DNA of 41,260 nucleotides from a virus: IMG/VR virus record IMGVR_UViG_3300045009_000035, positions 1-41,260 of that record; one strand, 5' to 3'. The notes beneath the pieces were generated by a model that saw only the letters and a program-made list of their open reading frames with translations, did no database searches and was not told the origin of the DNA. Made by a program: the position numbers and the translations under genes. Positions 1 through 33,349 of the stretch are shown here, piece after piece (within the stretch, counting starts at the first letter, position 1; the number at the start of each line of letters is the position of its first letter).

Positions 1-1676
1 ACGCACCAACGCGGGACAAGTTGTTCACCCGTTGGGGGATGCTCAAGTCTGAGCGCGCATCGTGGCTCGCGCACTGGCAGGAGATCACGACCTACCTGTT
101 GCCGCGCAACGGTCGTTACTTCCGCCAGGACCGCGACAAGGGATGGAGACGGCACAACAACATTTACGACAACACCGGGACTCGCGCACTGCGCACGCTC
201 GGTGCGGGCATGATGGCTGGCGCGACCTCGCCTGCGCGTCAATGGTTCCGACTTGCAACCGCTGACCCGGAACTGAACTCATACCAGCCCGTCAAGTTGT
301 GGCTCGATGATGTGACGCGGCGCATGCAGCTCGTGTTTCAGAAGTCAAACACGTACCGCGCACTGCATTCGATGTACGAAGAACTTGGCGCGTTCGGCAC
401 GGCGGCGAGCCTCGTGCTGCCTGACTTCAAGAACGTCATTCACCAGTACCCAATCACCTGTGGCGAGTATTGCATTGCGACCGACTTCCAAGGTCGCGTG
501 ACCACGCTGTACCGCGAGTTTGAAGTCACCGTGGCCGATCTCGTCAAGGAGTTCGGTTACGAGAAATGCAGCGTCACGGTGCGCAACATGTACGACCGTG
601 GCACGCTCGACGCATGGATTCCAATCATCCACGCCATCGAGCCGCGCACCGACCGTGACCACAAGAAGCGCGATGACAAGAACATGGCCTACGGGTCGTG
701 GTACTTTGAGGTCGGAGGCGAGGAAGGCAAGTTCCTGCGCGAGTCTGGGTTCCAACAGTTCCCTGCACTCGTCCCGCGCTGGGCGACCGCCGGCGGCGAC
801 ATCTATGGCAACTCGCCCGGCATGGAGGCGCTTGGGGACATCAAGCAGCTGCAGCACGAGCAGTTGCGCAAGGCGCAGGCCATCGACTTCCAGACGAAGC
901 CGCCTCTGCAGGTGCCTATCTCCATGAAGAACCGCGACGTCGAGACGCTGCCGGGCGGCATCTCGTTCGTTGACGGCGCAGGCATGGGCATCAAGACCGC
1001 GTTTGAGGTCAACCTGAACCTGCAGTATCTGCTCAACGACATCATGGATTGCCGCGAGCGCGTACGTGGAGCGTTCTACGCGGACATGTTCCTGATGCTA
1101 GCTACGCAGCCCAACACGCGCATGACGGCCACCGAGGTCGCCGAGCGTCACGAGGAGAAGTTGCTCATGCTCGGCCCCGTGCTTGAGCGCCTGCACAACG
1201 AACTGCTCGATCCGCTCGTTGACATCACGTTCACGCGCATGCTGCAGGCTGGCATCGTCCCGCCTGCGCCCGAAGAACTGCAGGGCATGGACCTGAACGT
1301 CGAGTTCGTCAGCATGCTTGCGCAGGCACAGCGCGCCATCGGCACGAACAGCGTTGACAGGTTTGTCGGCAACCTCGGCGCCATCGCGCAGATGAAACCC
1401 GACGTGCTCGACAAGTTTGACAGCGACCAGTGGGCGGACATCTATGCCGACATGCTTGGGGTCGATCCTTCGCTCATCATTGCGGACAAGGAAGTGGCGA
1501 TGGTGCGCAATGCGCGCAACCAGGCAATGGCGGCTAAGGAGCAGGTGGCTGCGGTCGAGCAGGCTAGCAAGGCGACTCGCAACCTGGCTGCGTCGCCTAC
1601 CGATCAGCAGACCGCGCTGACCGACGTGATGAACATGTTCTCGGGATACGGTAGCCCTAGCGCACTGGAGGTCTAA
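1..1676 (+). CDS. Portal (head-tail connector) protein, 5' end at the other end of the window
   Basis: Portal protein, the dodecameric ring at the capsid vertex through which DNA is packaged and ejected and to which the tail attaches. The reading frame is already open at base 3. The true start is the ATG at 41049, because the window ends overlap; joined, the protein is about 570 residues, usual for podoviral portals. Typical features are the N-terminal RWGMLKSERASW region, the YDNTGTRALRTLGAGMMAG segment and the central EALGDIKQLQHEQLRK segment that precedes the crown helices. A coiled, Ala/Gln-rich C-terminus follows. It lies directly downstream of the terminase block, the usual packaging order, and its stop overlaps the next start (TAATG). 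The TTG at 21 is in frame but is not the start. Function is inferred from recognisable family sequence and position. Confidence 0.93.
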   Translation, partial: APTRDKLFTRWGMLKSERASWLAHWQEITTYLLPRNGRYFRQDRDKGWRRHNNIYDNTGTRALRTLGAGMMAGATSPARQWFRLATADPELNSYQPVKLWLDDVTRRMQLVFQKSNTYRALHSMYEELGAFGTAASLVLPDFKNVIHQYPITCGEYCIATDFQGRVTTLYREFEVTVADLVKEFGYEKCSVTVRNMYDRGTLDAWIPIIHAIEPRTDRDHKKRDDKNMAYGSWYFEVGGEEGKFLRESGFQQFPALVPRWATAGGDIYGNSPGMEALGDIKQLQHEQLRKAQAIDFQTKPPLQVPISMKNRDVETLPGGISFVDGAGMGIKTAFEVNLNLQYLLNDIMDCRERVRGAFYADMFLMLATQPNTRMTATEVAERHEEKLLMLGPVLERLHNELLDPLVDITFTRMLQAGIVPPAPEELQGMDLNVEFVSMLAQAQRAIGTNSVDRFVGNLGAIAQMKPDVLDKFDSDQWADIYADMLGVDPSLIIADKEVAMVRNARNQAMAAKEQVAAVEQASKATRNLAASPTDQQTALTDVMNMFSGYGSPSALEV

Positions 1677-11246: not shown

Positions 11247-14200
11247 TGCAGGAAGACAACCTGTCGGACATCACGATGACCCCTCGCATCCCTTCCGCTG
11301 AGGAGAACCCGTTCATCCCGATGGCGCAGAAGATGGCGCAGCCCGAACAACTCGGGTTGAACACGCCTGCAGACAACCCGTTCCTCGCCATTGCCAAGGG
11401 CATGGGCGGAGAGGGTCAGCCGCCGGCCATCGGTTCGATTGCTAGCACGCTGTCGATCAACCCCGACCAGGCTGCGCAAGCCAGCAAACTCGGCGGCCAG
11501 TTCGGTCTTGGTCAGGACATTGCGCTGCGCAACATGGACGAGTTGCGGCGTCGTTCGCTCATTACTCGCCTGCAGCAAACGGGGATGCTTGAAAAGAACC
11601 CGGCGCTTGCCGAGTCGCTTGCCAATCCCGCATTCTCGGCGCAAGCGCACGATGACATTGACAACCTAGCGGAAACCGGGTCTTGGATTGACAGCATCAG
11701 CAAGGGGTTTGAGGGCGGGTTCTTGATGAAGGAGCCTGGCGAATTGTTGTTTTCGCCTTTGAGTGGTCAGTTGTTGTATGGAGAGACTGAGGCTCAACAA
11801 GAACGATTGGGTTTTGCGCGCAAGCGCATGCAGGAAACGCAAGGCAGCGGCATTCTGTACATGACCGCACAAGTCATTGCGCAGCAACTTACACAGGCCA
11901 AGGCAATTGGAACTACAGCCTTGGCAGGTGCTGCAATTGGTGGTTCTGTAGGTGGTGCGCCTGGTGCGGTAGCAGGCGCTGGTGTTGGTGCCGCAACCGG
12001 GATTGTGCTAACTACGGCGCAGACGGAAGCAGGACTTCTATACGATGAACTTGAGCAAGCTGGAGTCGATCCACAAACGGCATTGAATGCTTCCATTATT
12101 GGCGGCACGATCAATGGTGCTATTGAACTGTTTGGTGCAACAATTGCAGCAAGACCGTTCAAGCCATTGATTCGTCGTTTAATCAAAGATCGCGTTGAAG
12201 CGTTGGCAATGCCGACGATGCGGTCGGCGGCAAAGGGTTTCGCCAAGGGCTATGCAACGCAGGTCGGCACGGAAACGCTTGAGGAAACCGTGCAGGAAAT
12301 TACCGCAATGACGGCGAGCGAAATCGCCAAGGCGGCTGACGGTATCGACTCCGAACTAACGTGGACGGACGCTCTGACCCGTATCACTGATGCTGCTATT
12401 GGCGGATTCCAAGGAAGCCTGCTGCTCGGCAGCATTGGGCCTGGCGCAAACGCCATCGTGGATACCCGCCGTGCGCGACAAACCGAAGCCCAGCAGAAGT
12501 GGCTTGACGGCCTGCAGGAGCGCGTTGCCGAGTCCAAGGTTCGCGAACGCAACCCGAGCGCGTTCCAAGAGTTCGTTGAGAAGCAGGTTGAGGGCAAGCC
12601 TGTTGCCACGATCTATGTTGACGCCGAGGAGGCCAAGGGTGTCCTCGCGCAGTTGAACCTGACGGCTAGCCAGGTTGACGCGATTGTGCCGGGCTTTGCC
12701 GAACAGGTCCGCGCAGAGTCAGAGCGTGGCGGCGACGTCACGATCCCGACCGCACTGTTCTCCGCCCGACTTGCCAACACCGACCTTGGGAACGCGCTGC
12801 GACCGCATATGCGCCTGTCGCCAGAGGCGTTGAGCGTGACGCAGCTAGAAGCCGTGCGCGCCGAGCGCGAGCGCATGTCCGCTGCTGGGCAGGATGTCAT
12901 TGACGAGCGCATGGCCGCTGAGGACACGGCGTTCGTTGAGAGCGCGCAGCGTGTCGAGGACACGATGTACAGTGAATTGACCGCAGCCGGCCAGCCCGCG
13001 ACAGAGGCCAAGATCAACGCCGAGTTTGTCCGCAACATGATGGCGTCGCTTGCCGACCGCGTTGGCGTGACGCCCGAGCAGATGTTTGAGCGTTACCCGT
13101 ACCGCGTCCGTGGCGAGGGCCAGGCAGCGCCGACAGAGCCGTCCGTTGCAACGCTTGAACAAGTATCGCCGGAAATTATCGCTCAATTGACGGATGACGA
13201 GGTTCGGCAACTTCTTGATTACGCATACGAAGTCGATGCTGTTCAGACCGACATTGATGCGCTAGAAACTGAACTTGATAAACGTGAGGTTGAGGAGGAT
13301 GACCCGTCAGGTGGCGATGATGAGCCAACGAGGAGTAGCACTGGACTAGGTATCGAAGAATTGATACGACAAGTCGCGCAGCAAGGTCGGCGCGACAATT
13401 TGTCGGCGGAACAATTAGGAGCTGCCATTCGCAATGATGGCGACCTTGCGGCGCTGTGGCAATTGAGTGTCGCGGATGGTGTTACCGATGCGGAACTAGG
13501 CGCGGAAGCGTACGCGGCCCTTGATGCGCAGGAGGCACGGGTTCAAGCGATCAAGGATCGCATGGCGCGTCGCAAGGTTCAGCGCCCGCTTGAGCAGGCA
13601 GTTACGCCAGCACCAGAATCTGGGGTGTTTGATGTCAACAATCCTCCAACTGCGAAGCCTGGAATGCGCGACGTATCGCAAGGTCCGGCAATTGTTGCTT
13701 TGATGGATTACGACGGCACGGTGTATTACGACGTCAACGCCACCATGCACGGCGACTTGATCGATACGTTCCCAGAAATTGCTGACACTGTCATTGATGG
13801 CGGATTCATCATCGATGGCAAGTATGTGATGAACGCATCGGATGGCGGATACGCGGCAGAGGAGGGTGGCAGTGAGCGCATGGCGGAGGTGCGTCGATTC
13901 ACGAAGCAAGTCAATACCCGCAAGCAGCGCCCGCTTGAGCAGGCGGCGAGGACGACGCGAAACCTCGGTCCGATTGAGGCGGCGAAGGCGATCGTGCAAG
14001 AAACGGGACGCGAGGCATTCACGGATGCCGACGAGTTCTTCAAAAAGAGATGGGACGCGCTGCTGAAGAAAACAAAGCGGCAAGTCAAACCAAGCCCACG
14101 AAACTTCCGAGAAGCCGCCAAGCGGGCAGTAGCTGACATTCTCGATTTCGTCAAAACCAACCCGAAGTTCGCTGACTATTACGCGAACGACTGGAAGGCG

Positions 14201-17200
14201 ACTCGGTCCATTCTTGACGATTACATTGGGCGCGCAATTACCGATGACGAGTTTGCGATGTTTCGCACCATCGCCGGCCTGACATCGCCGAACACGATGT
14301 TGCCTGCGAACATTAGCGACACGGTTGGTTTATGGGATCACTGGATGCGCGAAGGTAATTTCGACGCATTCACGCTCGGACCGAAGCCTGGTACCGGGGC
14401 GCTCGTGGTGTTTGAGGCAGCCGAGCCAATTAGCGGAACGACGGCAAACGTCAAGGTGCGAACGATTCGCATCATTGAACGGCTGATCAAGGAACGTGGC
14501 GGCGTCACGCAGGCGCTTGAGTACTTGCAGGAAGGCGTTCCGGTCAAGGAACTGCACAAGTTCAATCGCAAGATGGGATATTCCGGCGCAGTCGGCGACA
14601 TCGGCAATATCACCGATCTCGTTCAGCAGGCGACTGGTCAGAGCAAACTGATTCCGCGCATGTTCATTTTCGGGCAGAAGGTAGGCGCATACACACTGAA
14701 CGCGATTGGCGACGAGCGATATACGACCGTGGACATTTGGGAGTCGCGGTATATCCGCAGCCATTTCACGGGCATGTTCGACGTCAATATCGGTCTACCT
14801 GAAAGCATCGACGAACATCAGATTTTCACTAGGTTCGGCGATCTGTTCAAGGAGGAAATGGAGGCCGTGACTGGGCGCAAATGGGCGCCTTCAGCCTTGC
14901 AGGCACTGCGTTGGTTCTATATCATTGGATCGGCACGGGAAGCCGGCTACAGCAAGGCGAGCACCAATGAAACCATCAGCTTCTACACCGAACGGCGACT
15001 CGTCCAAGCCTTTGGATATCCAGGCCGCGCTGCAACTAGCGGGGGACCGAGCGTTGGAACGGCTGCGCTTGGAGGTGCAGCAGGGCAAGTTCGCGCTGCC
15101 AGAATCCCGCCGAAGCGATTTGAGCGCAACCTTGAAACCGATGTCGCCAAACTCGACAATCCAGACCAAAGACGCAGAGCCATCGCCGCCGGCTACGTCC
15201 GCTATGCAAGATATAACTCTGAACTCGGCCAACGAGGCTTCTCGTTTGACGAACGCCGAGGCGGACCTGCTCGACAGCATGGGATTCTGAACGCGACGAT
15301 TGCTGCGGACTTTGTTCCTGGCGAACGTTTGCAATCCGCATTTGGGAAGGCAAACCTTCCACTCCAAACAATGCAGGAACTCGTGGCGGACGCCGATGGG
15401 GCGCAGGCGTTCCGAGCACTGGTAGCAGCGACAAACGCATCGAATCCATATGGTGCGGCAGTTGCTGTTTATACAGCTGAGGAATATCAGGGCAAGCGTT
15501 TGTTCGTCACAGAGGACGCAACGGCAGGATTTGCGTTGTCGGCTGATGGTGACATCGTGTCTGTATTCAGTGCGCCTAAGAGCGGCAATGGACGAGCCGT
15601 GATGGCGCTATCTGTGCAAGTCGGTGGCCGTCGCCTTGATTGTTTCGACACCGCACTGCCTGGGTATTACGCAGCACATGGCTTCCGGGCCGTTGCGCGC
15701 TTGGCATGGAACGACGAATACGCACCAACCGGATGGAACAAGGACACGTTCAAAAATTTCAACGATGGCCGGCCAGATGTTGTGTTCATGGTGTATGAGC
15801 GCGGTTACAACGGCGAATATAAAGCCGGCGATGGCGCAACGGTTGGTGATTACGACGCCGGTTCGCAGGCGCAAGCTCGCGCATTGCAAGCAATTGCAAA
15901 GAGTCAACAATTTCAGCAGGCAGCCCGCGGACTCGCCCGCGGCGGATTCGATCCGCAGAAGCTCCTGACCACGCTCAACAAGGATGCTGACTTCAGCACC
16001 TTCGCGCACGAGACAGCGCACTACTTCCTGACCATCCTTGGCGACGTCGCGGCACGACCAGACGCGCCAGCATCGGTGGTCGATGACATGAACACGCTGC
16101 TGCGTTGGTTCGGCGTCAAGGATCTAGCGACTTGGAACGCGATGTCGCTTGACCAGCAGCGCCAGTACCACGAGCAGTTTGCGTACTCGTTTGAGACCTA
16201 CCTGTTTGAAGGCAAGGCGCCGAGCGTGGAGATGCAGGGTCTGTTCGACCAGTTCGCACGTTGGCTCAAGCAGGTCTATCAGGGTCTCATCACGAAGATC
16301 AACGACGTGTACAAGGCCGAGTTCGGCAAGGATCTGCCGATCCTGACGGGCGAGGTCCGCCAGGTCATGGACCGCATGCTGGCGACCGAGGACCAGATTT
16401 CCCGTGCTCAGGCCATCCGCGAGATGAAGCCACAGTTCCAGACGCAGGAACAGTCCGGTATGGACGATGCCACGTGGGCTGCGTATCAGGAATTGCAGGA
16501 ACAGGCCACCGAACGTGCTGTTGCCGAACTGACCACGGCCACCCTCAAGGAGATGGCGTGGATGTCGCGTGCTCGTGGCCGCAAGTTGCGCGAGCTGCAG
16601 CGTCAGCACGATGACAAGCGCAAGGAGATCAAGGACGAGGTCACCGAGGATCTGCGCGTCCTGCCGGTGTACCGTGCGATGGAGTTCCTGAAGCGCGGCA
16701 AGGTGGTCGATGTCGATGGCACGACCAAGCCGGCGACTGGTCAGTTCAAGTTGTCGTTGGCTGGCGTGCAGGCTGTCATGCCGCCTGGCTTCGATGTCGC
16801 CACCCTTGGCCGTGGCCGATACGGCATGGTCAATGAGGACGGTCTGCACCCCGACCTGATTGCGCCGCTGTACGGGTACGCCAACGGCGCCGAACTCGTC
16901 ACCGCCCTGTCAACGGCCAAGCCGTTCGCTGATGCGGTCGCCGAGCGCACCGACCAGCGGATGCTTTCAGAGTTTAGTGAACTGGCCGACCCGGCTGCCC
17001 GCTCGTTGGCGGTGGACCGTGCCATCCACAACGAGGCACGCGCCCGCCTGATTGCTGTTGAGCAGCGGTGGGCCTCCAAGCTGCAGCAGCCCGTCAGCGT
17101 CATCATGGAGGCGGCTAGCCAGGTTGCAGGGGAGATCATTGGGCGGCAGACGATCCGCACCCTCTCGCCACGCGCCTACGCCGCCGCAGAGGCCCGTGCT

Positions 17201-20017
17201 GCCCGTCTAGCGACCTCGGCCTACACCGAGCCTCAAACGCCCGATCAGGCCGGCCAGACGGCTGCTACGCGGGCCTACAACGCGGCTATCGCCGCCGGCA
17301 AGACGGTTGACGAGGCGACGGCTGAGTCGCTGTCGGCTGGCGTCGCGGCGGTTGAGAAAGCCCGTGAGCGCCGTGCCGAGTTTGACAAGAAGTACGGGGG
17401 CAAGTCGCCGGCTGAGGTGATGATGCGGGCTAAGCGTCAGCAGCTTCTGCAGAACATGCTGGCTCGTCAGGCGCTTGAGGCCCGTGCCGAGATCGACCGC
17501 GCCAGGTCGGCGTTCAAGCGGTTCTTCGGCTCGGACGAGAAGATCGGCAAGACGCGCAACATGGAGATGGTGTCGGCGGCCCGCGCCATCCTCGGATGGT
17601 ACGGGTTCGGCAAGCGCGACAAGTCGCCCGCCGAGTACGTCGATCAGTTGAAGGCATATAACCCCGCTGCCTACGCGCAGTTGGAGCCGCTGATTCTGCA
17701 GGCAACCCGTGGTCCGCAGGACTACCGCGACCTGACGGTTGACGAGTTCCGTGTGCTGCGCGACACCGTTGACGGGCTTTGGATTCAGGCGCGCAAGGAC
17801 AAGCAGGTCAAGTTGGCCGACCGGACGATGGCGCTTGATGAGGTCGTTGGAGAACTAGACAAGCGGCTTGAGGAGATTGGTGTACCGAAGGTCGTGCCGG
17901 GCGAGAAGCGTGCGCCGACGTTCCGCGACCGTGCTGCCCGTCACCTGATGACGTTGCGCTCAACCATGCGCCGCGTGGAGTCGTGGGCCGACTCAATGGA
18001 CGGCGTGTCAACCGTGCGCCCGTTCACGAACTACCTGGTGCGCCCTGTGCTCGATGCGGTTGACAAGTTCACGGCGAGCCGCAACAAGTACATGAAGCGG
18101 TTCCGTGACTTGGTGGTCAACCTGCAGATGCCGGAAGGCACTCTCTCGGCACCAGAACTTGACTACACCTTCGGCGCTGGCAACGCCGGCATCGGCAAGG
18201 CGGAACTGCTCGGCGCACTGCTTCACACGGGTAACGAGAGCAACTACCGCAAGTTGCTGCTCGGTCGAGGTTGGGGTCAGGAGGACGAGTTCGGCAACCT
18301 CGATGACACGCAGTTCAAGGCGTTCGTCAAGCGCATGCAGGACGAGGGCATTCTGACGAAGGCCGATTACGACTTCCTGCAGTCGGTGTGGGATCTCAAC
18401 GAGGAGATCAAGCCCATCGCCCAGAAGGCGCACTACGAGCTGTACGGATTCTATTTCACGGAGATCCCGGCAAGCGAGGTGGTCACGCCGTTCGGCACCT
18501 ATCGCGGCGGGTACGTGCCGGCGGCAACCGACAAGTTCATGGTGGCCGACGCCGCGCAGCGTGCCGGCGAGGAGGAACTTGAGTCGGACTGGCGGAACTC
18601 GCTGCCTAGCACCGGACGCGGGTTTACCAAGGCCCGCATGGCGGGTTACAACAAGGCGCTGTCACTCGACGTCCGTGTCATCGGCGCACACATCGACTCG
18701 GCGCTGCGATTCGCCATGATTCAGCCGGCCATCACGCAGGCGCTGCGCATCTTGCGTTCGCGTGAGTTTGCGGCTCGACTTGACCGCGTTGACCCCACCG
18801 TCAAGCAGGAACTGCTGATCCCGTGGCTGAACAGGACGGCGCGTCAACTTGTGTCGCAGCCTGGCAAGTACAAGGCGGTTGATGCCTTCTGGCGCGGCGT
18901 GCGCACCAGGACGGGCATGTCGATCATGTTCGCCAACCTGCGCAACGCCCTGCAGCAGTTCACGGGTTTGTTCCCGGCGGGACTCAAGGTGCAGCCGCGC
19001 TACCTCACGTCGGCGCTAACCGAGTATGTCGGCTCGCCGCAGCGAACTGCCAACAGCGTTGCTGCCCTGTCGCCTTTCATGGAGGACCGCCTGAAGGGTC
19101 AGTCGTTTGAGATGCAGGAGCAGATCAACGAGGTGCTGCTGAACCCAAGCAAGTTCGACAAGGCACAGGCGTGGACGGACCGACACGGGTACTTCCTGCA
19201 GCAAGCCTTCCAGAACATGGTTGACGTTGTCACCTGGGTGGGCGCCTACAACCAGTCGCTGTCAACAGCCGATACGACGATGACTGCAGAGGAAGCGCAG
19301 CGTGAGGCCATCGCCGCCGGCGACGCCGCAGTGCGGTTGACACAGGGCAGCGTGCGACCGAGCGACGTGTCTGCGTTTGAGTCTGGCACCCCGTTCTTCC
19401 GCACCCTGACGCAGTTTGCGGGCTACTTCAACATGCTCGCCAACCTGAACTCGACGGAGTATGTCAAGGTCATGCGCGACATGGGGTTCCGTGGCAACAA
19501 GGGCAAGCTCGTTTATATTTACATGATGGGCTTCATGCTGCCGGCGGTGGTCGCCGACGCCATCGTCCGCACGCTCGGCGGTGGGTGGGAAGACGAAGAC
19601 GAGGACGGCTATCTGGACACGTTCATGGACTGGTTCTTCGGCAGCCAGATCCGTCAGGGCGTTGCGTTCGTGCCGTTCGGGACCACGGCCTACACGCTCG
19701 CCACGACGGCGTTTGATGACAAGCCATACAACGACCGCATGACCACCAGCCCAGCGGTCGCTTCGCTTGAGGCGGCGACGGTTGGCGTCGGCAAGGCGGC
19801 AATCGCCGTAGTTGACGAGGAGGAGGACGTGACGGGCAAGAACGTCCGCGACGTGCTGACGTTCTTGAGCCTGGCGACCGGGATTCCGTTTAGCGTGCTC
19901 GGTCGCCCCGCCGGGTATCTCGTTGATGTTCAGCGCGGCGAGGTCGAACCCACTAGCACCTACGATATGATCCGTGGCACGATTACGGGAACTGCCACGC
20001 CGGAGAGCAAGCGATGA
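11246..20017 (+). CDS. Giant polyvalent internal virion protein (2,923 residues)
   Basis: A very large ejection-type protein with several modules. Residues about 205-260 form a Gly/Ala-rich hydrophobic segment. A 115-codon cassette (about 779-893) is bounded by a 20-base direct repeat. Residues about 900-1255 hold a phage domain seen elsewhere, with FRTIAGLTSPNTMLPANISD and RYTTVDIWESRYIRSHFTG. Residues about 1390-1510 look GNAT-like (FALSADGDIVSVFSAPKSGN, ALPGYYAAHGFRAV). An HExxH peptidase motif lies at H1588-E-T-A-H1592, with possible third ligand E1643 or E1650. Long Ala/Arg/Glu helices follow, then a C-terminal region resembling LPD38 (TPFFRTLTQFAGYFNMLANL). Such proteins enter the host with the DNA. 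Third-codon GC drops around 11.65-12.25 and 13.2-15.9 kb, suggesting mosaic origin. Domain limits are approximate. Confidence 0.9.
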   Translation: MQEDNLSDITMTPRIPSAEENPFIPMAQKMAQPEQLGLNTPADNPFLAIAKGMGGEGQPPAIGSIASTLSINPDQAAQASKLGGQFGLGQDIALRNMDELRRRSLITRLQQTGMLEKNPALAESLANPAFSAQAHDDIDNLAETGSWIDSISKGFEGGFLMKEPGELLFSPLSGQLLYGETEAQQERLGFARKRMQETQGSGILYMTAQVIAQQLTQAKAIGTTALAGAAIGGSVGGAPGAVAGAGVGAATGIVLTTAQTEAGLLYDELEQAGVDPQTALNASIIGGTINGAIELFGATIAARPFKPLIRRLIKDRVEALAMPTMRSAAKGFAKGYATQVGTETLEETVQEITAMTASEIAKAADGIDSELTWTDALTRITDAAIGGFQGSLLLGSIGPGANAIVDTRRARQTEAQQKWLDGLQERVAESKVRERNPSAFQEFVEKQVEGKPVATIYVDAEEAKGVLAQLNLTASQVDAIVPGFAEQVRAESERGGDVTIPTALFSARLANTDLGNALRPHMRLSPEALSVTQLEAVRAERERMSAAGQDVIDERMAAEDTAFVESAQRVEDTMYSELTAAGQPATEAKINAEFVRNMMASLADRVGVTPEQMFERYPYRVRGEGQAAPTEPSVATLEQVSPEIIAQLTDDEVRQLLDYAYEVDAVQTDIDALETELDKREVEEDDPSGGDDEPTRSSTGLGIEELIRQVAQQGRRDNLSAEQLGAAIRNDGDLAALWQLSVADGVTDAELGAEAYAALDAQEARVQAIKDRMARRKVQRPLEQAVTPAPESGVFDVNNPPTAKPGMRDVSQGPAIVALMDYDGTVYYDVNATMHGDLIDTFPEIADTVIDGGFIIDGKYVMNASDGGYAAEEGGSERMAEVRRFTKQVNTRKQRPLEQAARTTRNLGPIEAAKAIVQETGREAFTDADEFFKKRWDALLKKTKRQVKPSPRNFREAAKRAVADILDFVKTNPKFADYYANDWKATRSILDDYIGRAITDDEFAMFRTIAGLTSPNTMLPANISDTVGLWDHWMREGNFDAFTLGPKPGTGALVVFEAAEPISGTTANVKVRTIRIIERLIKERGGVTQALEYLQEGVPVKELHKFNRKMGYSGAVGDIGNITDLVQQATGQSKLIPRMFIFGQKVGAYTLNAIGDERYTTVDIWESRYIRSHFTGMFDVNIGLPESIDEHQIFTRFGDLFKEEMEAVTGRKWAPSALQALRWFYIIGSAREAGYSKASTNETISFYTERRLVQAFGYPGRAATSGGPSVGTAALGGAAGQVRAARIPPKRFERNLETDVAKLDNPDQRRRAIAAGYVRYARYNSELGQRGFSFDERRGGPARQHGILNATIAADFVPGERLQSAFGKANLPLQTMQELVADADGAQAFRALVAATNASNPYGAAVAVYTAEEYQGKRLFVTEDATAGFALSADGDIVSVFSAPKSGNGRAVMALSVQVGGRRLDCFDTALPGYYAAHGFRAVARLAWNDEYAPTGWNKDTFKNFNDGRPDVVFMVYERGYNGEYKAGDGATVGDYDAGSQAQARALQAIAKSQQFQQAARGLARGGFDPQKLLTTLNKDADFSTFAHETAHYFLTILGDVAARPDAPASVVDDMNTLLRWFGVKDLATWNAMSLDQQRQYHEQFAYSFETYLFEGKAPSVEMQGLFDQFARWLKQVYQGLITKINDVYKAEFGKDLPILTGEVRQVMDRMLATEDQISRAQAIREMKPQFQTQEQSGMDDATWAAYQELQEQATERAVAELTTATLKEMAWMSRARGRKLRELQRQHDDKRKEIKDEVTEDLRVLPVYRAMEFLKRGKVVDVDGTTKPATGQFKLSLAGVQAVMPPGFDVATLGRGRYGMVNEDGLHPDLIAPLYGYANGAELVTALSTAKPFADAVAERTDQRMLSEFSELADPAARSLAVDRAIHNEARARLIAVEQRWASKLQQPVSVIMEAASQVAGEIIGRQTIRTLSPRAYAAAEARAARLATSAYTEPQTPDQAGQTAATRAYNAAIAAGKTVDEATAESLSAGVAAVEKARERRAEFDKKYGGKSPAEVMMRAKRQQLLQNMLARQALEARAEIDRARSAFKRFFGSDEKIGKTRNMEMVSAARAILGWYGFGKRDKSPAEYVDQLKAYNPAAYAQLEPLILQATRGPQDYRDLTVDEFRVLRDTVDGLWIQARKDKQVKLADRTMALDEVVGELDKRLEEIGVPKVVPGEKRAPTFRDRAARHLMTLRSTMRRVESWADSMDGVSTVRPFTNYLVRPVLDAVDKFTASRNKYMKRFRDLVVNLQMPEGTLSAPELDYTFGAGNAGIGKAELLGALLHTGNESNYRKLLLGRGWGQEDEFGNLDDTQFKAFVKRMQDEGILTKADYDFLQSVWDLNEEIKPIAQKAHYELYGFYFTEIPASEVVTPFGTYRGGYVPAATDKFMVADAAQRAGEEELESDWRNSLPSTGRGFTKARMAGYNKALSLDVRVIGAHIDSALRFAMIQPAITQALRILRSREFAARLDRVDPTVKQELLIPWLNRTARQLVSQPGKYKAVDAFWRGVRTRTGMSIMFANLRNALQQFTGLFPAGLKVQPRYLTSALTEYVGSPQRTANSVAALSPFMEDRLKGQSFEMQEQINEVLLNPSKFDKAQAWTDRHGYFLQQAFQNMVDVVTWVGAYNQSLSTADTTMTAEEAQREAIAAGDAAVRLTQGSVRPSDVSAFESGTPFFRTLTQFAGYFNMLANLNSTEYVKVMRDMGFRGNKGKLVYIYMMGFMLPAVVADAIVRTLGGGWEDEDEDGYLDTFMDWFFGSQIRQGVAFVPFGTTAYTLATTAFDDKPYNDRMTTSPAVASLEAATVGVGKAAIAVVDEEEDVTGKNVRDVLTFLSLATGIPFSVLGRPAGYLVDVQRGEVEPTSTYDMIRGTITGTATPESKR
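13580..13944 (+). repeat. 20-base direct repeat pair bounding a 115-codon cassette
   Basis: A perfect 20-base direct repeat occurs at 13580-13599 and 13925-13944, 345 bases (115 codons) apart and in frame inside the giant ejection protein. Both copies encode QRPLEQA. The enclosed segment is a small alpha/beta-looking domain (AIVALMDYDGTVYYDVNATM). It looks like a domain gained by repeat-mediated insertion that could be lost by recombination between the copies. Confidence 0.8.
14967..15290 (+). CDS. Candidate nested or relict 107-residue gene inside the polyvalent protein gene
   Basis: An open frame shifted relative to the surrounding giant gene. It starts MKPSASTPNGDSSKPLD, has a convincing helix (AALQLAGDRALERLRLEVQQ) and ends NEASRLTNAEADLLDSMGF. 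In a 41-codon stretch (about 15003-15125), hand counting gives about 76% G/C at third positions in this frame against about 46% in the main frame; elsewhere in this GC-rich genome the coding frame has the high value. The main-frame peptide here is also Gly/Arg-rich and domain-poor. Either this is an expressed overlapping gene, or an ancestral separate gene whose sequence became a linker when neighbouring genes fused. No family recognised and no clear ribosome site. Confidence 0.45.
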   Translation: MKPSASTPNGDSSKPLDIQAALQLAGDRALERLRLEVQQGKFALPESRRSDLSATLKPMSPNSTIQTKDAEPSPPATSAMQDITLNSANEASRLTNAEADLLDSMGF

Positions 20018-27968: not shown

Positions 27969-28745
27969 TCAGAAGGGGAGTTCGGTGGTAGGTGCGGGCG
28001 ACGGCGCCTGCCAGCGCATGATGGTCAGCGCGCCATCGACACGGGCAAGGTGGACCTTGGCGGTCGAGTCGATGTCATCCTTGGCGAACTGCACGTACTC
28101 CATCACGTCGGTGGTCATCCACGCCTTGCCGTGCGGCCCGTCGAACTGGATGGCGATGGGCTTGCCCTTGCGCTCTGCGACGCGCAGGATAGTGACCTCG
28201 CCCTCCCACTCGTCGGGGTACTCGTCTGCAGGCGGTGTAGGCGCCTTGGCGGGCGTCGTGGGGGCTTCGACGGTGGCGATGGGCCTTGCGACGGGCGCGG
28301 CCTTGGGAGCCGCCTGCGGGGCTGCGGCGGGGCGGTGCGACTCGCGGGGTGCCTGGCGGTCCTGCTCGCCGTCATCGTCCTCCTCGCCGACGATGCCGCA
28401 CACGGCTGCTGCGCTGTAACGACGCAGGTAGGTCACGAGGCTGCCGAGTTGCTGAACCGTGCCGCGTTCCGGGAACGGCATGGACACGGTCTCTGCCATC
28501 CACTCGCCGCTGACGTGCAGCAGGGTGGTCTCGACGGCCACGGTGTTGTTGTCCGTGTTGACGGTCTGCACCAGCGCGAGTCCGTTGCTGGCGAGCGGGA
28601 TGCGCACGGCGTTCAGGATCGCGCCGAGGCTCGCGTAGCGGTTGCGGAAGTGCGGGTTGACACTGTCAAGACGGGGGTTGGTGATGTGGGTATTTGCAGT
28701 CGCCAACGCCTTGGCAAGCTGCCCGATAGAAGCACTCGTTCGCAT
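27969..28745 (-). CDS. erf: ERF-family single-strand annealing protein
   Basis: A 258-residue recombinase of the ERF family, which anneals complementary single strands in phage homologous recombination. The N-terminal domain has SIGQLAKALATANTHITNP, NPHFRNRYASLGAILNAVRI, GLALVQTV and the conserved GTVQQLGSLVTYLRRYSAAA, followed by GIVGEEDDDGE. A Pro/Ala-rich linker leads to a C-terminal part and the acidic end TTELPF, which resembles an SSB tip. Two ATGs lie two codons apart; the second (28745) was chosen because GAGAGG is seven bases from it and only one base from the first. A promoter and inverted repeat sit just upstream. Confidence 0.88.
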   Translation of the reverse strand: MRTSASIGQLAKALATANTHITNPRLDSVNPHFRNRYASLGAILNAVRIPLASNGLALVQTVNTDNNTVAVETTLLHVSGEWMAETVSMPFPERGTVQQLGSLVTYLRRYSAAAVCGIVGEEDDDGEQDRQAPRESHRPAAAPQAAPKAAPVARPIATVEAPTTPAKAPTPPADEYPDEWEGEVTILRVAERKGKPIAIQFDGPHGKAWMTTDVMEYVQFAKDDIDSTAKVHLARVDGALTIMRWQAPSPAPTTELPF

Positions 28746-28765
28746 TGTCATTCCTCTCAAAGAAT

Positions 28766-28790: not shown

Positions 28791-28819
28791 ACTGTATACG
28801 CCGCAATATAGTCTGTCAA
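28791..28819 (-). promoter_or_regulatory. Sigma70-like promoter for the ERF operon
   Basis: On the - strand TTGACA (28819-28814), a 17-base spacer and TACAGT (28796-28791). TATACA at 15-base spacing is an alternative -10. The -35 box overlaps the RusA stop codon, so the ERF-Gp157 group can be transcribed separately from the upstream early genes. It shares TTGACA and a G-rich ...AGTCC end with the promoter at 34241. Confidence 0.65.
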
Positions 28820-29241
28820 CGGGCAGCGTAAGAAATCGTGACAACAGTTTCTGACTTGTCGCCGAATCGTTTCATCGCGTTGAGGTATATGACCTGGCTG
28901 TCATCGCGGTAGATCACCCCGGTCAGCCCGTCGAGCAGTGCGCGGCACAACTTGTCAAGGTCAGGCTTTCCGGGCGACATTGGCGCTGATGCCTTGACCG
29001 CGCCGGCAGCAGTCTTGTGACTCTTTGGGCGCTCGATAACAAACTCGGCACTAACGGTCACGTCGCACTCAACTGGGGCGCTTGTGAACGCACGGCCAGC
29101 CTCATAGGCCACGACGGCCCGCCACGGTTTGACCCGCTTGCTTGACTCGATCAGCACTGTTCGCCCGTTGCGCAGGCGCACCATCCGCTTGCTGCCCTGT
29201 GGCGCAGCCAAGCCGGGCACGACGAACTCAATGACCGGCAA
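28816..29241 (-). CDS. rusA: RusA-type Holliday junction resolvase
   Basis: A 141-residue endonuclease resembling RusA, which cuts four-way DNA junctions. The N-terminus has FVVPGLAAPQGSKRMVRLRN (the family VPG-x-PAPKGR-like start). The catalytic region is PGKPDLDKLCRALLDGLTGV with Asp94 and Asp96, then YRDDSQV with Asp113 and Asp114; these acids bind the metal ion in known RusA proteins. Length is slightly above the E. coli enzyme. It probably resolves recombination or replication intermediates before packaging. The ATG overlaps the upstream gene by 14 bases. Confidence 0.9.
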   Translation of the reverse strand: MPVIEFVVPGLAAPQGSKRMVRLRNGRTVLIESSKRVKPWRAVVAYEAGRAFTSAPVECDVTVSAEFVIERPKSHKTAAGAVKASAPMSPGKPDLDKLCRALLDGLTGVIYRDDSQVIYLNAMKRFGDKSETVVTISYAAR

Positions 29242-29413
29242 GGTGCGCCTTCAGTTGCTGCTTGGTGGTATTCACGTCACGCATTGCTAGTGCCAATTCC
29301 ATCCGCAGGTGGACGATCATGTCGCGGCATTCAATCAGCAGCGGGCCGGGCGAGGGATGCGCGTCGATTCGCTCGACGATGTCATCCTCTGTTTCGCCCG
29401 GTGACGTCTGCAT
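29228..29413 (-). CDS. Small acidic-helical early protein
   Basis: A 61-residue protein, probably all helical: TEDDIVERIDAHPSPGPL, then IECRDMIVHLRMELALAMRD and a Lys/Gln tail. It overlaps the upstream stop by one base (TAATG) and the RusA start by 14 bases, so it is translated in a coupled series. No motif or family recognised. Confidence 0.6.
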   Translation of the reverse strand: MQTSPGETEDDIVERIDAHPSPGPLLIECRDMIVHLRMELALAMRDVNTTKQQLKAHLAGH

Positions 29414-29676
29414 TACACGTCCCTTAGTCCGTCAAGAAGGCGTGACAGCCTTGTTTGTGTTGCGGCTAGGTGCGCACGTGCTTGCATCTCGCGGACACGA
29501 ATGTCCTTGATTTCCTCCTCAAGCAGACTTGCCTGCACGATGCAACCTGACACAAATACCCTGCACTCCCGGAGGAGCGTCAGGGCATCGAGGTCAGGCG
29601 CATTGCCTGCAACGTAGGCATCAATGCGCGCTAGCAGTGTCTTCGATTCGCTCGTGTGCATCATCGTTCTCGGCAT
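29413..29676 (-). CDS. Small helical early protein
   Basis: An 87-residue protein with helices (KTLLARIDAYVAGNAPDLDA, LLRECRVFVSGCIVQASLLE, EMQARAHLAATQTRLSRLLD). It resembles the following 61-residue product in layout, suggesting the two could be diverged relatives. Three start codons are possible (29676, 29664, 29661); all overlap the HTH gene upstream. No ribosome site clearly decides between them. Function unknown. Confidence 0.58.
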   Translation of the reverse strand: MPRTMMHTSESKTLLARIDAYVAGNAPDLDALTLLRECRVFVSGCIVQASLLEEEIKDIRVREMQARAHLAATQTRLSRLLDGLRDV

Positions 29677-29812
29677 GGCGTGACCCGTTCACGATACGGC
29701 ATACCGCGCTGCGTGACACTGTGTAACGCTTGGCAATTTCGCCCTGCGGTTCACCATTAGCAACAGCTTGACGAATGGCTTCAACCGTTTCCTTGTCAAT
29801 TCGCTTCGGCAT
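29621..29812 (-). CDS. Small helix-turn-helix DNA-binding protein
   Basis: A 63-residue protein starting MPKRIDKETVEAIRQAVANG. A helix-turn-helix of the recombinase/homeodomain-like kind lies at about residues 24-42 (GEIAKRYTVSRSAVCRIVNG), with the usual EIA, small-residue turn and S-x-x-V-x-R-I recognition helix. A short acidic tail follows. It could regulate the early promoters or be an orphan DNA-binding module of the type attached to HNH endonucleases. The start at 29812 was preferred over 29833, which has extra unconserved-looking residues. It overlaps the CsrA-like gene by 17 bases. Confidence 0.7.
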   Translation of the reverse strand: MPKRIDKETVEAIRQAVANGEPQGEIAKRYTVSRSAVCRIVNGSRHAENDDAHERIEDTASAH

Positions 29813-29993
29813 CGTTGTCCTCCACATGCTCACGAATCACCCTGATCTCGCGTGGTGCGCACACGCGCACCTTAGTCCGCGCCTTCCCGAGCAGTTGGAT
29901 CACGGCCAGCACATGACCGTCGATCATCAGCACGGCATCCTCGTCCTGGCTGATCGCCAGACACACCTTCGTGAAGTTCTTCGGCATCTCCAT
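29796..29993 (-). CDS. csrA: CsrA/RsmA-like RNA-binding regulator
   Basis: A 65-residue protein, the usual CsrA length. It fits the CsrA strand order: VCLAISQDEDAVLMIDG (beta 1-2, where CsrA has L-x-L-T-R-x-x-G-E-x-x-x-I-G), VLAVIQLLG (beta 3), TKVRVCAPREIRVIREHVED (beta 4-5 and the AP-x-x-I-x-V-x-R-E-E signature). Arg54 occupies the place of the key RNA-binding arginine (R44 in E. coli). The N-terminal strand is the most diverged part. CsrA dimers bind GGA in hairpin loops and over ribosome sites to control translation. AAGGAAGG seven bases before the ATG at 29993 supports this start. It lies in the early operon, so it may act on early phage mRNA or host mRNA. Family call is from motif pattern only. 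Confidence 0.72.
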   Translation of the reverse strand: MEMPKNFTKVCLAISQDEDAVLMIDGHVLAVIQLLGKARTKVRVCAPREIRVIREHVEDNDAEAN

Positions 29994-30210
29994 TGCAGCA
30001 CCTTCCTTGGTTGAGTTCTTCGACCAGTGCTTCCATAGCACTGAGCATGTTGTGTGCTCGGTTTGACCACTCGTCAACAGCGTCGGGCGCACCTACGGAC
30101 AGATCGGCAACCTTGGCGCGCAGCCTGCAGATTTCGGCGGCAGCCTTCATGCAGTCGGCATCCGTCATCCAGGTTGCGACACGGTACAGCCTGTCAACAA
30201 TGTCGCTCAT
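29872..30210 (-). CDS. Small early protein overlapping the CsrA-like gene
   Basis: A 112-residue frame. The first 65 residues look genuine (SDIVDRLYRVATWMTDADCM, KAAAEICRLRAKVADL, MLSAMEALVEELNQG), a pattern seen in many small phage helical proteins. The last 40 residues (GCRADDRRSCAGRDPT) look like an out-of-frame reading of the CsrA-like gene, which this frame overlaps by 122 bases. Either the tail is tolerated junk or the original stop was lost. The start overlaps the previous stop (ATGA). Confidence 0.58.
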   Translation of the reverse strand: MSDIVDRLYRVATWMTDADCMKAAAEICRLRAKVADLSVGAPDAVDEWSNRAHNMLSAMEALVEELNQGRCCNGDAEELHEGVSGDQPGRGCRADDRRSCAGRDPTAREGAD

Positions 30211-30424: not shown

Positions 30425-30694
30425 CTAAAATGGGATGTCGGTGTCTGGGGTCGGGGTGTGCGGACGCGGAGACGGACGGGCAGCCGGCGCGGCTCGCGGA
30501 GCCTCTGCCTGCTCGCGTGGCTCGCTGAACTTGAGCGACAGGAACTCGGTCCCCTTGCTTGAGGTCTTGACCCATGCAGCGATATCAACCATGCGACCGT
30601 TGATCATCGCGTTGCCTCGCCAGTCCGGCTGGCGTTCGTGTTGTTTGCGGTTGGGGAACAACGCCCCGCTGTCATCCTTCGGTTCGTACGGCAT
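30425..30694 (-). CDS. Small protein with SSB-like acidic tip
   Basis: An 89-residue protein. The N-terminal half has MPYEPKDDSGALFPNRK, PDWRGNAMINGRMVDIAAWV and KTSSKGTEFLSLKFSE, a small beta domain seen in many phages and sometimes annotated as DUF736-like or single-strand-binding-like. A Pro/Ala/Arg-rich linker ends in TPDTDIPF, nearly identical to the C-terminal tip of bacterial SSB (DDDIPF), which docks host repair and replication proteins. The ATG at 30694 was chosen because AAAGGA is six bases upstream; the longer form from 30718 lies further into the methyltransferase gene. It probably binds ssDNA or mimics SSB. Confidence 0.72.
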   Translation of the reverse strand: MPYEPKDDSGALFPNRKQHERQPDWRGNAMINGRMVDIAAWVKTSSKGTEFLSLKFSEPREQAEAPRAAPAARPSPRPHTPTPDTDIPF

Positions 30695-32948
30695 TGCCTG
30701 TCCTTTCGTAATTATCAATGCGCTCTCCGATCCAAGCCATCACGTTGACGGCCATGCTGTTGCCAAGCGCCTTGTAGCGCGGCCCGTCTGGGCAGTCATC
30801 GGCGGTCTTCTTGCGCCACGGGATCATCGTCCAGTTGCGCGGAAATCCCTGCAAAAACTCGCATTCTGTGGCCGTCAATCGACGCACGGTCATTGCGTTT
30901 TTTGACGTTGGCCGCGAAACATCAACGGGTCGCCGTGCCTCTTGAATCTCTGATAGTGCTTGTCGCAGAATCCCAACCCCTTCACCGGAGCACCACAGAT
31001 GGTGCATGAGCCTTTCGGCCTGTGGCCCCGGACATGGCAGCTGCGACAAATACGCTCCAAGTTGCCCGGCGAGTTGTTGAGGTAGTTCCCGTCGCGATGG
31101 TGAACATCCTTCGCCTTCGGCTTCCCGCACCGACTGCACGGCCCAGGCGGCACGATCTTCCGGGCGTGATATCGCGCAGTCGATGGGCCAACTACGGCTG
31201 AATGTCGCGCATCGAATGCCCTTGCCATGCAGACGCGACCGCAGTACTTGCGACGGTTGAAGTGAATCAAGTACTCCAAGCCCCCACGCGGCAAAGGCTT
31301 CCTCTCCAATTTCGTCCCGCAGAACTCGCAATGTCGCAATGGCGTTGGCTTCTTGTGTGCTGGCATGATCGCCATTGTACCCTTGCTGCTGCAAGGATTG
31401 AACAGGCACAAGCGGCGTCCCTCGCCCTGTACCGTCCTCGCTTGCGTCAAAGCCTTCGGCGCGAAGCGTGTGCGCGACCGCGACTTGTCCACCGCCGTTC
31501 GCGTGACTTCCGTCGTGCGACATTGAGCGCATCGTCGGGGAAATAGATGAGGCATCTCCTCCGTGATCCTTGCACGTGAATGCGATGACGGTCATCGGCG
31601 TGTGCGCCACCGCTGGCGGCGAAGGGATGCCGATGCCGCTTCCGACCTTTACCGCTGGCGAAACCTCTGGGTGCTGATTCACGCCGTGCGTTCCACCCGT
31701 GCTGTAGAAAGCGTGCGCCACCGCCTGCATCACGGTCGGCCCGCTTGCGTTGATGCTTGATCCCGGCGTACCCATCGTCGCCGCCACGTCACCCGTGATC
31801 GCGCCGTTGTAGCAGTCCGTGCCGTAGGCCACCGCCTGCTTGTTGTTGCCGCCACCGCCTGCCTCAAGCGTGCAGGCGACGCCTTCCTGTGCGCCAAGGC
31901 TCCGCGCTTCTGCTGACTGTCCGGGCTTGAACGCCACCGCAACCATCGGAGTGTTCCGTCCGCTAGGGTTGCTATTCGTGTTGACGGTTCCCGCGACTGC
32001 GCCCGTCCGCACCTCGCCGACTTGATTCTGCGCGAACGCCACCGCCACCGTTGTCGCCCGCACGTCGCCCTGGTCGAACAGCGACAGCGTTGGGTTGACT
32101 GCGCCCTCTACCCATGTCTCATCGTCGGTCGCGGACTGGGCGCGCTTGGACTTCGTGAACGGGACGGGTTGCGGGATGTACGCGCCGTGCCCGTCTAGTT
32201 CCGTGTGCGACCGCAGTCCGCGATTGCCGAGCGTCGAGGCGACGGGTTGCAGCGTCAGGTTCTGGCACTCGTCTCCGGCTGGCTCCCCGGTTCCCTTGCT
32301 CCACTTGCTGCACACGCTTGCAGCGCAGACTCCAGCATCGGCGGCAGGCTCTTCCCGCGTCGCTCTGCGCGGCGCAGAATCCCGCTGCACGCTTTGGGAC
32401 TCAAAGAGAACCGAGGCGGCAGCGGTTGGGTCTCCAAGACATCCGACAACGAAGATACGTCGCCTGCGCTGCGGGACGGCGCGTGGATGCCGTTGTGTTC
32501 GCACCCATTGAGCGTCCAGCACCCGGTAGGCCCACCCATACCCCAGTTCCCCCAGCGCCCCGAGGAAGGCACCAAGATCCCGTCCTGATCCTGATGACAA
32601 GACACCGGGGACATTTTCCCAGACAAGCCATCGAGGCCGTAGACGTTGAGCGATCTCAAGATAGGTGAGCATGAGTCCGCCTCTGGGGTCAGAGAGACCT
32701 CTGCGGAGTCCTGCGACGCTGAAGCTTTGGCATGGAGTTCCGCCGACCAGAAGGTCAACTGATCCGGGTCCGAGGTTCCATTCTGCATGACGAGTCATAT
32801 CTCCAAAGTTCGGGACATTGGGAAACCGATGCGCGAGGACCGCGCTCGGGAACGCTTCGATCTCGCTGAAGCCGACTGGCTGCCACCCGAGGTGATGCCA
32901 CGCCACACTTGCGGCCTCGATGCCGCTGCACACGCTCAAGTATCGCAT
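30672..32948 (-). CDS. C5 cytosine DNA methyltransferase
   Basis: A 758-residue Dcm-type methyltransferase. Motif I is LSVCSGIEAASVAW (SAM binding), motif IV TPCQSFS with catalytic Cys73, motif VI ENVPG at 111-115, motif VIII QRRRRIFVVG at 160-169, and motifs IX-X at the C-terminus (VRRLTATECEFLQGFP, RYKALGNSMAVNVMAWIG). About 430 residues of repeat-like sequence with VAVAF, VAHTL and QAVA units lie between, holding the target-recognition region. The segment just before motif IX overlaps an HNH gene in another frame. Start 32948 has AGGAG eight bases upstream. It may protect phage DNA from host restriction. No cognate restriction enzyme is seen. Confidence 0.9.
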   Translation of the reverse strand: MRYLSVCSGIEAASVAWHHLGWQPVGFSEIEAFPSAVLAHRFPNVPNFGDMTRHAEWNLGPGSVDLLVGGTPCQSFSVAGLRRGLSDPRGGLMLTYLEIAQRLRPRWLVWENVPGVLSSGSGRDLGAFLGALGELGYGWAYRVLDAQWVRTQRHPRAVPQRRRRIFVVGCLGDPTAAASVLFESQSVQRDSAPRRATREEPAADAGVCAASVCSKWSKGTGEPAGDECQNLTLQPVASTLGNRGLRSHTELDGHGAYIPQPVPFTKSKRAQSATDDETWVEGAVNPTLSLFDQGDVRATTVAVAFAQNQVGEVRTGAVAGTVNTNSNPSGRNTPMVAVAFKPGQSAEARSLGAQEGVACTLEAGGGGNNKQAVAYGTDCYNGAITGDVAATMGTPGSSINASGPTVMQAVAHAFYSTGGTHGVNQHPEVSPAVKVGSGIGIPSPPAVAHTPMTVIAFTCKDHGGDASSISPTMRSMSHDGSHANGGGQVAVAHTLRAEGFDASEDGTGRGTPLVPVQSLQQQGYNGDHASTQEANAIATLRVLRDEIGEEAFAAWGLGVLDSLQPSQVLRSRLHGKGIRCATFSRSWPIDCAISRPEDRAAWAVQSVREAEGEGCSPSRRELPQQLAGQLGAYLSQLPCPGPQAERLMHHLWCSGEGVGILRQALSEIQEARRPVDVSRPTSKNAMTVRRLTATECEFLQGFPRNWTMIPWRKKTADDCPDGPRYKALGNSMAVNVMAWIGERIDNYERTGNAVRTEG
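30890..31375 (-). CDS. HNH endonuclease overprinted on the methyltransferase gene
   Basis: A 161-residue protein in the second frame of the methyltransferase gene, same strand. A first zinc-ribbon has C16-x-x-C19 and C45-x-x-x-C49. The HNH core has C80-x-x-C83, HH at 92-93 (KDVHHRDGNYLNNSPGNLER), N105, then C110-x-x-C113-H114 and H118. A third ribbon has C124-x-x-C127, C137 and DKHYQRFKRHGDP, which is usual at the end of such phage nucleases. AAGGG lies four bases before the ATG at 31375. In a 38-codon sample third-position GC is about 74% in this frame and about 45% in the methyltransferase frame. It is probably a homing-type nicking nuclease. Chance assembly of this many ordered Cys/His ligands is unlikely. 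Confidence 0.8.
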   Translation of the reverse strand: MAIMPAHKKPTPLRHCEFCGTKLERKPLPRGGLEYLIHFNRRKYCGRVCMARAFDARHSAVVGPSTARYHARKIVPPGPCSRCGKPKAKDVHHRDGNYLNNSPGNLERICRSCHVRGHRPKGSCTICGAPVKGLGFCDKHYQRFKRHGDPLMFRGQRQKTQ

Positions 32949-33349
32949 CGCGCCCACTCCTTCCGCGCTTTGGCTGCGTAGCCGTCGGTCGCTTTCCGGC
33001 GCTTGGTCGCGCCGGCGGGGCCGCCGTTGTGAATGCGTGCGCACTCGTCAATCGTCCACGTTTTGCAGTAGCGGGACAGGTACGCGATCACGACGCGCTC
33101 GGCGTACTCGCGATCGGTCACGGCCTCATAGCCGCGCTCACGCAGGCTCGGGTCATACTCGCACGCATCGACCCAGTAGACGCGCCAGACCTGATACGCG
33201 CCGAGCGCCTTGCCGCCGTCGCCGACGGCGCAATCAGGGTCGCGCTCGCCGCCCGTCTCGACGACCTGGAGCGTGTCGAGGATGCGGCGCACATCCGTGC
33301 CGGCGGGAGGCGGGACGGTCATGGAGGCAGCGAGGAGGGCGGCAATCAT
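32936..33349 (-). CDS. Muramidase / i-type-lysozyme-like endolysin
   Basis: A 137-residue lysozyme-like protein. After a short hydrophobic start (MIAALLAASM) come LDTLQVVETGGERDPDCAVG (candidate catalytic Glu31), GKALGAYQVWRVYWVDAC, DREYAERVVIAYLSRYC and the signature ARIHNGGPAGATKRRKATDG. The G-x-YQ-x-x-x-x-YW-x-D and RIHNGGP motifs match destabilase/i-type lysozymes used by phages as endolysins. It would cleave peptidoglycan glycan chains. The hydrophobic start is short for a secretion signal, so export may depend on a holin. It overlaps the methyltransferase start by 13 bases and the upstream stop by 4 (ATGA). Its place in the early operon, away from the lysis group, is unusual. Confidence 0.8.
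   Translation of the reverse strand: MIAALLAASMTVPPPAGTDVRRILDTLQVVETGGERDPDCAVGDGGKALGAYQVWRVYWVDACEYDPSLRERGYEAVTDREYAERVVIAYLSRYCKTWTIDECARIHNGGPAGATKRRKATDGYAAKARKEWARCDT

Follow-up and report, generated by a model that had tools for sequence, protein, structure and literature searches.

The question raised by this locus is whether a short open reading frame (ORF), lying among the recombination genes of a phage, encodes a relative of the RNA-binding regulator CsrA, and on whose transcripts such a protein would act. The stretch of DNA that was analysed, referred to here as the window, comprises the 41,260 bases of a virus record and carries head-tail adaptor, tail and terminase genes of podovirus type. 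The ORF is complete and comprises 65 codons at 29796..29993 on the minus strand, with the ATG at 29993 and the stop at 29796. Its 65-aa product is MEMPKNFTKVCLAISQDEDAVLMIDGHVLAVIQLLGKARTKVRVCAPREIRVIREHVEDNDAEAN. The sequence right before the ATG, CCAAGGAAGGTGCTGCA, contains a good ribosome-binding site, with the Shine–Dalgarno sequence GGAAGG at 30001..30006 on the same strand, 7 nt upstream of the start codon. AAGGAGG occupies the equivalent position in most relatives, the exceptions being L100, L103 and L106. A preliminary description had reported the ORF with no strand given, and both motifs quoted there, CLAISQDEDA and the AP signature (in full AP-R-E-I-R-V-I-R-E), are found in the product. 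The gene is termed csrA-like on the basis of its translation, a sub-threshold Pfam CsrA match, profile-profile comparison, and PDB matches by sequence and by model.

The csrA-like gene belongs to a codirectional minus-strand block that runs in the order methyltransferase, ssb-like, 112-aa ORF, csrA-like, helix-turn-helix (HTH) protein, two small ORFs, RusA, ERF, small ORF and Gp157. Upstream lie the DNA methyltransferase gene (30672..33044; PHROG 116, 1.3e-80), the gene for an ssDNA-binding-like protein (30425..30718; PHROG 18154), conserved upstream of the csrA-like gene in the relatives, and the 112-aa ORF (29872..30210). The methyltransferase ORF has a long insert between its conserved ends and encodes 790 aa in the window, as opposed to 392 aa in L001. 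Downstream, the gene for an HTH DNA-binding protein (29621..29815; HTH matches in Pfam and PHROG) overlaps the end of the csrA-like gene; this small protein was also found in L001 and, by tblastn, in none of the remaining relatives. It is followed by a conserved 87-aa ORF (29413..29676) that marks the syntenic block, a RusA-like Holliday junction resolvase gene (28816..29241; Pfam RusA, 1e-15) and the gene of an ERF ssDNA-annealing protein (27969..28760; Pfam ERF, 8.9e-18). The term “early operon”, applied previously, is plausible given the codirectional ssb-like, methyltransferase, RusA, ERF and Gp157 genes, early expression being deduced from the gene content of the block. Elsewhere in the window, a single ORF of 2,923 aa at 11246-20017 is flanked by an endolysin-like and a tail-fibre gene; two Manatee Spring relatives carry genes of comparable length, annotated as crystallin beta/gamma motif proteins.

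Single-sequence searches of PHROGs, PDB, phages and NCBIfam with the csrA-like product returned nothing useful, the search of plasmids gave one chance match only, and no relative was found among named phages. Within IMG/VR, one other contig carries a 97% identical copy, and peptide scans using the neighbouring genes revealed no contig beyond it. The terminase, with relatives at 67-70% in two Manatee Spring phage records, was used to gather 80 related viral contigs. Six of these have a small ORF of ~75 aa in the equivalent position, with the ssb-like gene on one side and the conserved 87-aa ORF on the other; this 87-aa ORF is 47-51% identical and adjoins the csrA-like gene in all six (L025, L026, L042, L050, L052 and L058). 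The window protein and its L058 homologue share 39% identity (E = 1.8e-9). A further scan yielded 17 members, the six syntenic contigs among them, and a third clade of ~60 aa is formed by L083, L072, L073, L076 and L088. In L083, the gene is located immediately downstream of the methyltransferase. Homologues are thus present in 23 viral contigs besides the window (the 97% copy and 22 further), and are syntenic where checked. Comparisons within the larger clade gave dN/dS values of ~0.06-0.24, which is purifying selection. The family is therefore conserved in place near phage recombination genes and under purifying selection, and the csrA-like ORF is a real gene.

The first two thirds of this gene are overlapped by the 112-aa ORF in a different frame, over 122 bases (29872-29993). 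A chance frame within the 112-aa ORF was considered and ruled out by the ribosome-binding site of the csrA-like ORF, the synteny, and the purifying selection in relatives. A single change separates the window from L001 in the overlap, as against a divergence of 0.30 at synonymous sites in the rest of the 112-aa ORF; dual coding of the overlap is possible.

In a search of 24,736 Pfam models, the csrA-like ORF alone matches CsrA at E = 0.049 and aligns collinearly with positions 11-49 of the profile; its score of 14 bits does not reach the curated cut-off of 27 bits for this family (PF02599). Against the window record alone, the same Pfam model finds the ORF at E = 0.0036. All eight family members tested match Pfam CsrA, with a best E of 5.4e-4, and no other family is listed. 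As these scores lie below the cut-off, the ORF is described as a distant relative and not as a member of PF02599.

Comparisons in the opposite direction used a profile built from the family only. Among 18,214 ORFs, this profile ranks canonical CsrAs directly below the family and above nearly 18,000 ORFs, almost without exception, with E-values of 1.8e-5 for L007, 2.6e-3 for L134 and 2.9 for the weakest canonical CsrA. Seven canonical CsrAs that had been found independently (L134, L114, L111, L115, L110, L113 and L112; E 0.0026 to 2.9) either outrank nearly 18,000 unrelated ORFs or fall among the top few of them. Against the PDB, the first six matches of the family profile are CsrA/RsmA, with E from 0.055, a comparison that, like the ranking of these seven, is not circular. 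Profile-profile comparison of the family with four viral CsrAs gave a probability of 93.5 and an E of 2e-7, a match that is partly circular, as the four were located with a pattern from the csrA-like ORF. A CsrA profile run against 12,363 ORFs placed the csrA-like ORF and its six syntenic homologues at ranks 1-7; when it was built without sequences chosen through the csrA-like ORF, the same seven came out on top with weak E-values of 0.13-1.6. At the level of sequence profiles, the family is shown to be specifically related to CsrA rather than to another family. The kinship with CsrA proposed in the preliminary description is supported only by way of the family of relatives; in the search of PF02599 suggested there, the single sequence gives a match below the Pfam cut-off.

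Structure prediction was carried out with two alignments. From the family-only alignment, AF2 produced a monomer (pLDDT 71, pTM 0.45) with five beta strands at residues 8-14, 18-24, 27-33, 40-46 and 51-56, a model of moderate confidence whose strand positions are close to those of CsrA. Foldseek and VIA retrieve no CsrA with this low-confidence monomer, a negative that carries no information, an interlocked dimer being the expected form. With four CsrA rows added to the alignment, the pLDDT was 75, the eight best Foldseek matches were CsrA (probability up to 0.97), and VIA aligned residues 5-56 with CsrA -2..46 (Z 4.3, 2.4 A), matches that are partly circular through the added rows. The C-terminal alpha helix is absent from the first model and limited to four residues of low confidence in the second. 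Five strands in CsrA order are predicted, with R54 as the likely equivalent of the essential R44.

In the register with E. coli CsrA, L12 corresponds to L4, I14 to R6, S15 to R7, A46-P47 to A36-P37 and R54 to R44. Studies of CsrA have described R44 and L4 as especially critical for RNA contact (PMC7652899). The R44 equivalent is invariant in the family and, like the Ala-Pro turn, kept in all three clades; the L4 equivalent is L in the window and the larger clade and M in the L083 clade. The AP-x-x-I-x-V-x-R-E signature pointed out previously survives in part: the key Arg is found in every member, but the R-E that follows is not kept (relatives have APMQIAIWRT or APKAVRIERN). The strand-1 residues R6 and R7 are lost, being replaced by I14 and S15 in the window and by L and K in the larger clade. 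Measured against the CsrA/RsmA references of PF02599 (E. coli CsrA, 1y00; P. aeruginosa RsmA, 1vpz; RsmA/CsrA, 2bti), the protein is alike in size, strand order, collinear match and the L4, A36-P37 and R44 equivalents. It differs in its sub-threshold score, the lack of R6/R7, two additional residues between strands 1 and 3, an N-terminal extension of ~8-13 residues, and an acidic tail where these proteins have the C-terminal helix. The loss of basic residues from strand 1 and the acidic tail suggest a weaker or altered RNA recognition, and the difference in RNA specificity anticipated earlier is possible.

The csrA-like protein is judged to be a distant relative of the CsrA family, and is most likely a dimeric translational regulator, predicted to bind RNA. 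In the fuller reading preferred here, with a probability of about 0.6, it is a strongly diverged, phage-specific CsrA relative that would regulate the translation of phage mRNAs by binding GGA hairpins as a dimer. The protein would form the interlocked CsrA dimer, which would bind GGA-containing hairpin loops in mRNA leaders and block the entry of the ribosome. The protein would act first on phage transcripts from the recombination block, among them its own leader, which presents GGA in a small hairpin loop over the Shine–Dalgarno sequence.

The candidate autoregulatory site, acc-AAGGAA-ggt, is located at 30000..30011 on the minus strand. The leader reads accAAGGAAggt in the window and (t)gtgcAAGGAGgcac(a) in the larger clade, with GGA in a hexaloop over the Shine–Dalgarno sequence, as in a classic CsrA site. 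Leaders of the relatives have stems of 4-5 bp around AAGGAG; among 289 background leaders, stems of at least 3 bp occur in 10 and of at least 4 bp in five. The hairpin is treated as a lead only, since the test was made after the pattern was seen, the stems overlap the upstream coding sequence, and three relatives (L100, L103 and L106) are without the site. As such, it suggests that the csrA-like protein may regulate its own synthesis. Across all leaders, GGA occurs 1.43 versus 0.86 times per 66 nt, an enrichment left out of the evidence because Shine–Dalgarno sequences contain GGA themselves.

The choice of candidate hosts rests on named bacterial genomes with relatives of the terminase, whose identity does not exceed 68%. 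Most of these genomes are betaproteobacterial: Ramlibacter, Dechloromonas, Comamonadaceae, Polynucleobacter, Propionivibrio and Accumulibacter, along with an Asticcacaulis MAG. CsrA was found in none of the nine candidate host genomes searched, and it is missing from 198 of the 200 Polynucleobacter-order genomes. Both copies in the remaining two look phage-borne. In L134, RusA and an AAA_24 ATPase come after CsrA, in a region that looks like a prophage, and in L135 the CsrA relative adjoins an apparent phage major capsid gene, as does gp46 of Burkholderia phage DC1. This L135 relative (1441-1644, minus strand) has K where the essential R44 would stand (PINKVTP). Phages positive for csrA in csrA-less Burkholderia have been noted earlier (PMC7366521).

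As the candidate hosts are without CsrA, the csrA-like protein probably acts without a host Csr network and not by imitating one. An extension of the preferred reading, tentative and rather doubtful, would make the family a separate phage CsrA subfamily that serves as a self-contained timer of the recombination block, repressing its own leader through the GGA hexaloop over the Shine–Dalgarno sequence in hosts without CsrA and presumably without a Csr network.

It is unlikely that the gene instead encodes a CsrA of the ordinary kind, carried by the phage to seize control of the Csr network of its host (metabolism, motility, CRISPR-Cas repression). CsrA/RsmA genes are on record for phages, with a proposed connection to the repression of CRISPR-Cas (PMC8450108, PMC7366521), the R44 equivalent is kept, and host takeover is an appealing idea for hosts that possess a Csr system (PMC8450108). 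Nonetheless, it fits poorly here, as CsrA is found in 0/9 of the best host candidates and 2/200 of the order, and the phage copies in those reports are of a host-like type to which the csrA-like sequence does not belong. The re-programming of the host raised in the preliminary description is not supported, the best host candidates being without CsrA.

Likewise improbable is the account of a protein that has kept the CsrA fold but lost GGA-RNA binding, and that acts as an adaptor for other proteins or binds some other nucleic acid of the recombination block. The lost basic residues of strand 1, the acidic C-terminus, the constant location near RusA, ERF and ssb-like genes, and the K for R44 in L135, itself a phage-associated CsrA relative, are consistent with it, but the R44 equivalent and the A-P turn are strictly conserved in the family while most other positions change. 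A small beta protein whose similarity to CsrA is accidental is very improbable: the single-sequence score is sub-threshold, the top score among 20,000 shuffled versions of the window protein was 18.1 bits, between the window ORF (23.1) and L092 (17.1), and the family-only model found no CsrA, but CsrA is the sole Pfam family listed for 8/8 members, the family profile ranks canonical CsrAs above nearly 18,000 ORFs, and there is a profile-profile match.

Phage-encoded CsrA has been published for 30 phages (PMC7366521), for many in a second survey (PMC8450108) and for CSP3 (PMC10269572). The gp46 of phage DC1 and the CsrA of other Bcep22-like podoviruses (Lessievirus; also CSP3 orf23) are comparable in being diverged proteins of podoviruses whose host group is without chromosomal csrA (PMC7366521). 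DC1 gp46 has, like the csrA-like protein, lost the strand-1 Arg6 and kept R44; it differs in that the A-P turn is not kept and its gene lies between the portal and major capsid genes instead of in a recombination block. A RusA resolvase neighbour is shared with canonical csrA genes in viral contig L005 and in L134, from a Polynucleobacter-order genome. Their products, unlike the csrA-like protein, have canonical sequences with MLVLTR/MLVLSR starts, and that of L134 passes the Pfam cut-off at 64 bits. In both, csrA is immediately followed by the resolvase gene (L005:11683-12286; L134:1501-2236), which, with the window group, makes three csrA-rusA neighbourhoods. RsmM of Pseudomonas phages (F116 and others) and the plasmid-borne RsmQ are also CsrA homologues on mobile elements; in contrast to the csrA-like gene, they are close to host CsrA, and their hosts possess a complete Csr/Rsm system (PMC7366521, PMC9928087).

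As phage CsrA genes are already known, the csrA-like family is a new, hard-to-detect branch and not a new kind of system. What is new is a diverged branch below the usual cut-offs with a fixed location in a recombination block, the repeated finding of csrA near rusA (window group, L005 and L134), and candidate hosts without CsrA. Iterated BLAST or profile cut-offs were the basis of published surveys of phage CsrA (PMC8450108, PMC7366521), which may well have overlooked this branch; the number of phages with CsrA-type regulation is therefore probably underestimated. In phages whose hosts have no CsrA, a relative of this protein would allow its own activity to be told apart from the circuitry of Csr sponge RNAs, and would call into question the view of phage CsrA as mainly a mimic of the host protein. 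The location of csrA near rusA in three separate phage groups is a hint that it may play a role in the timing of recombination genes.
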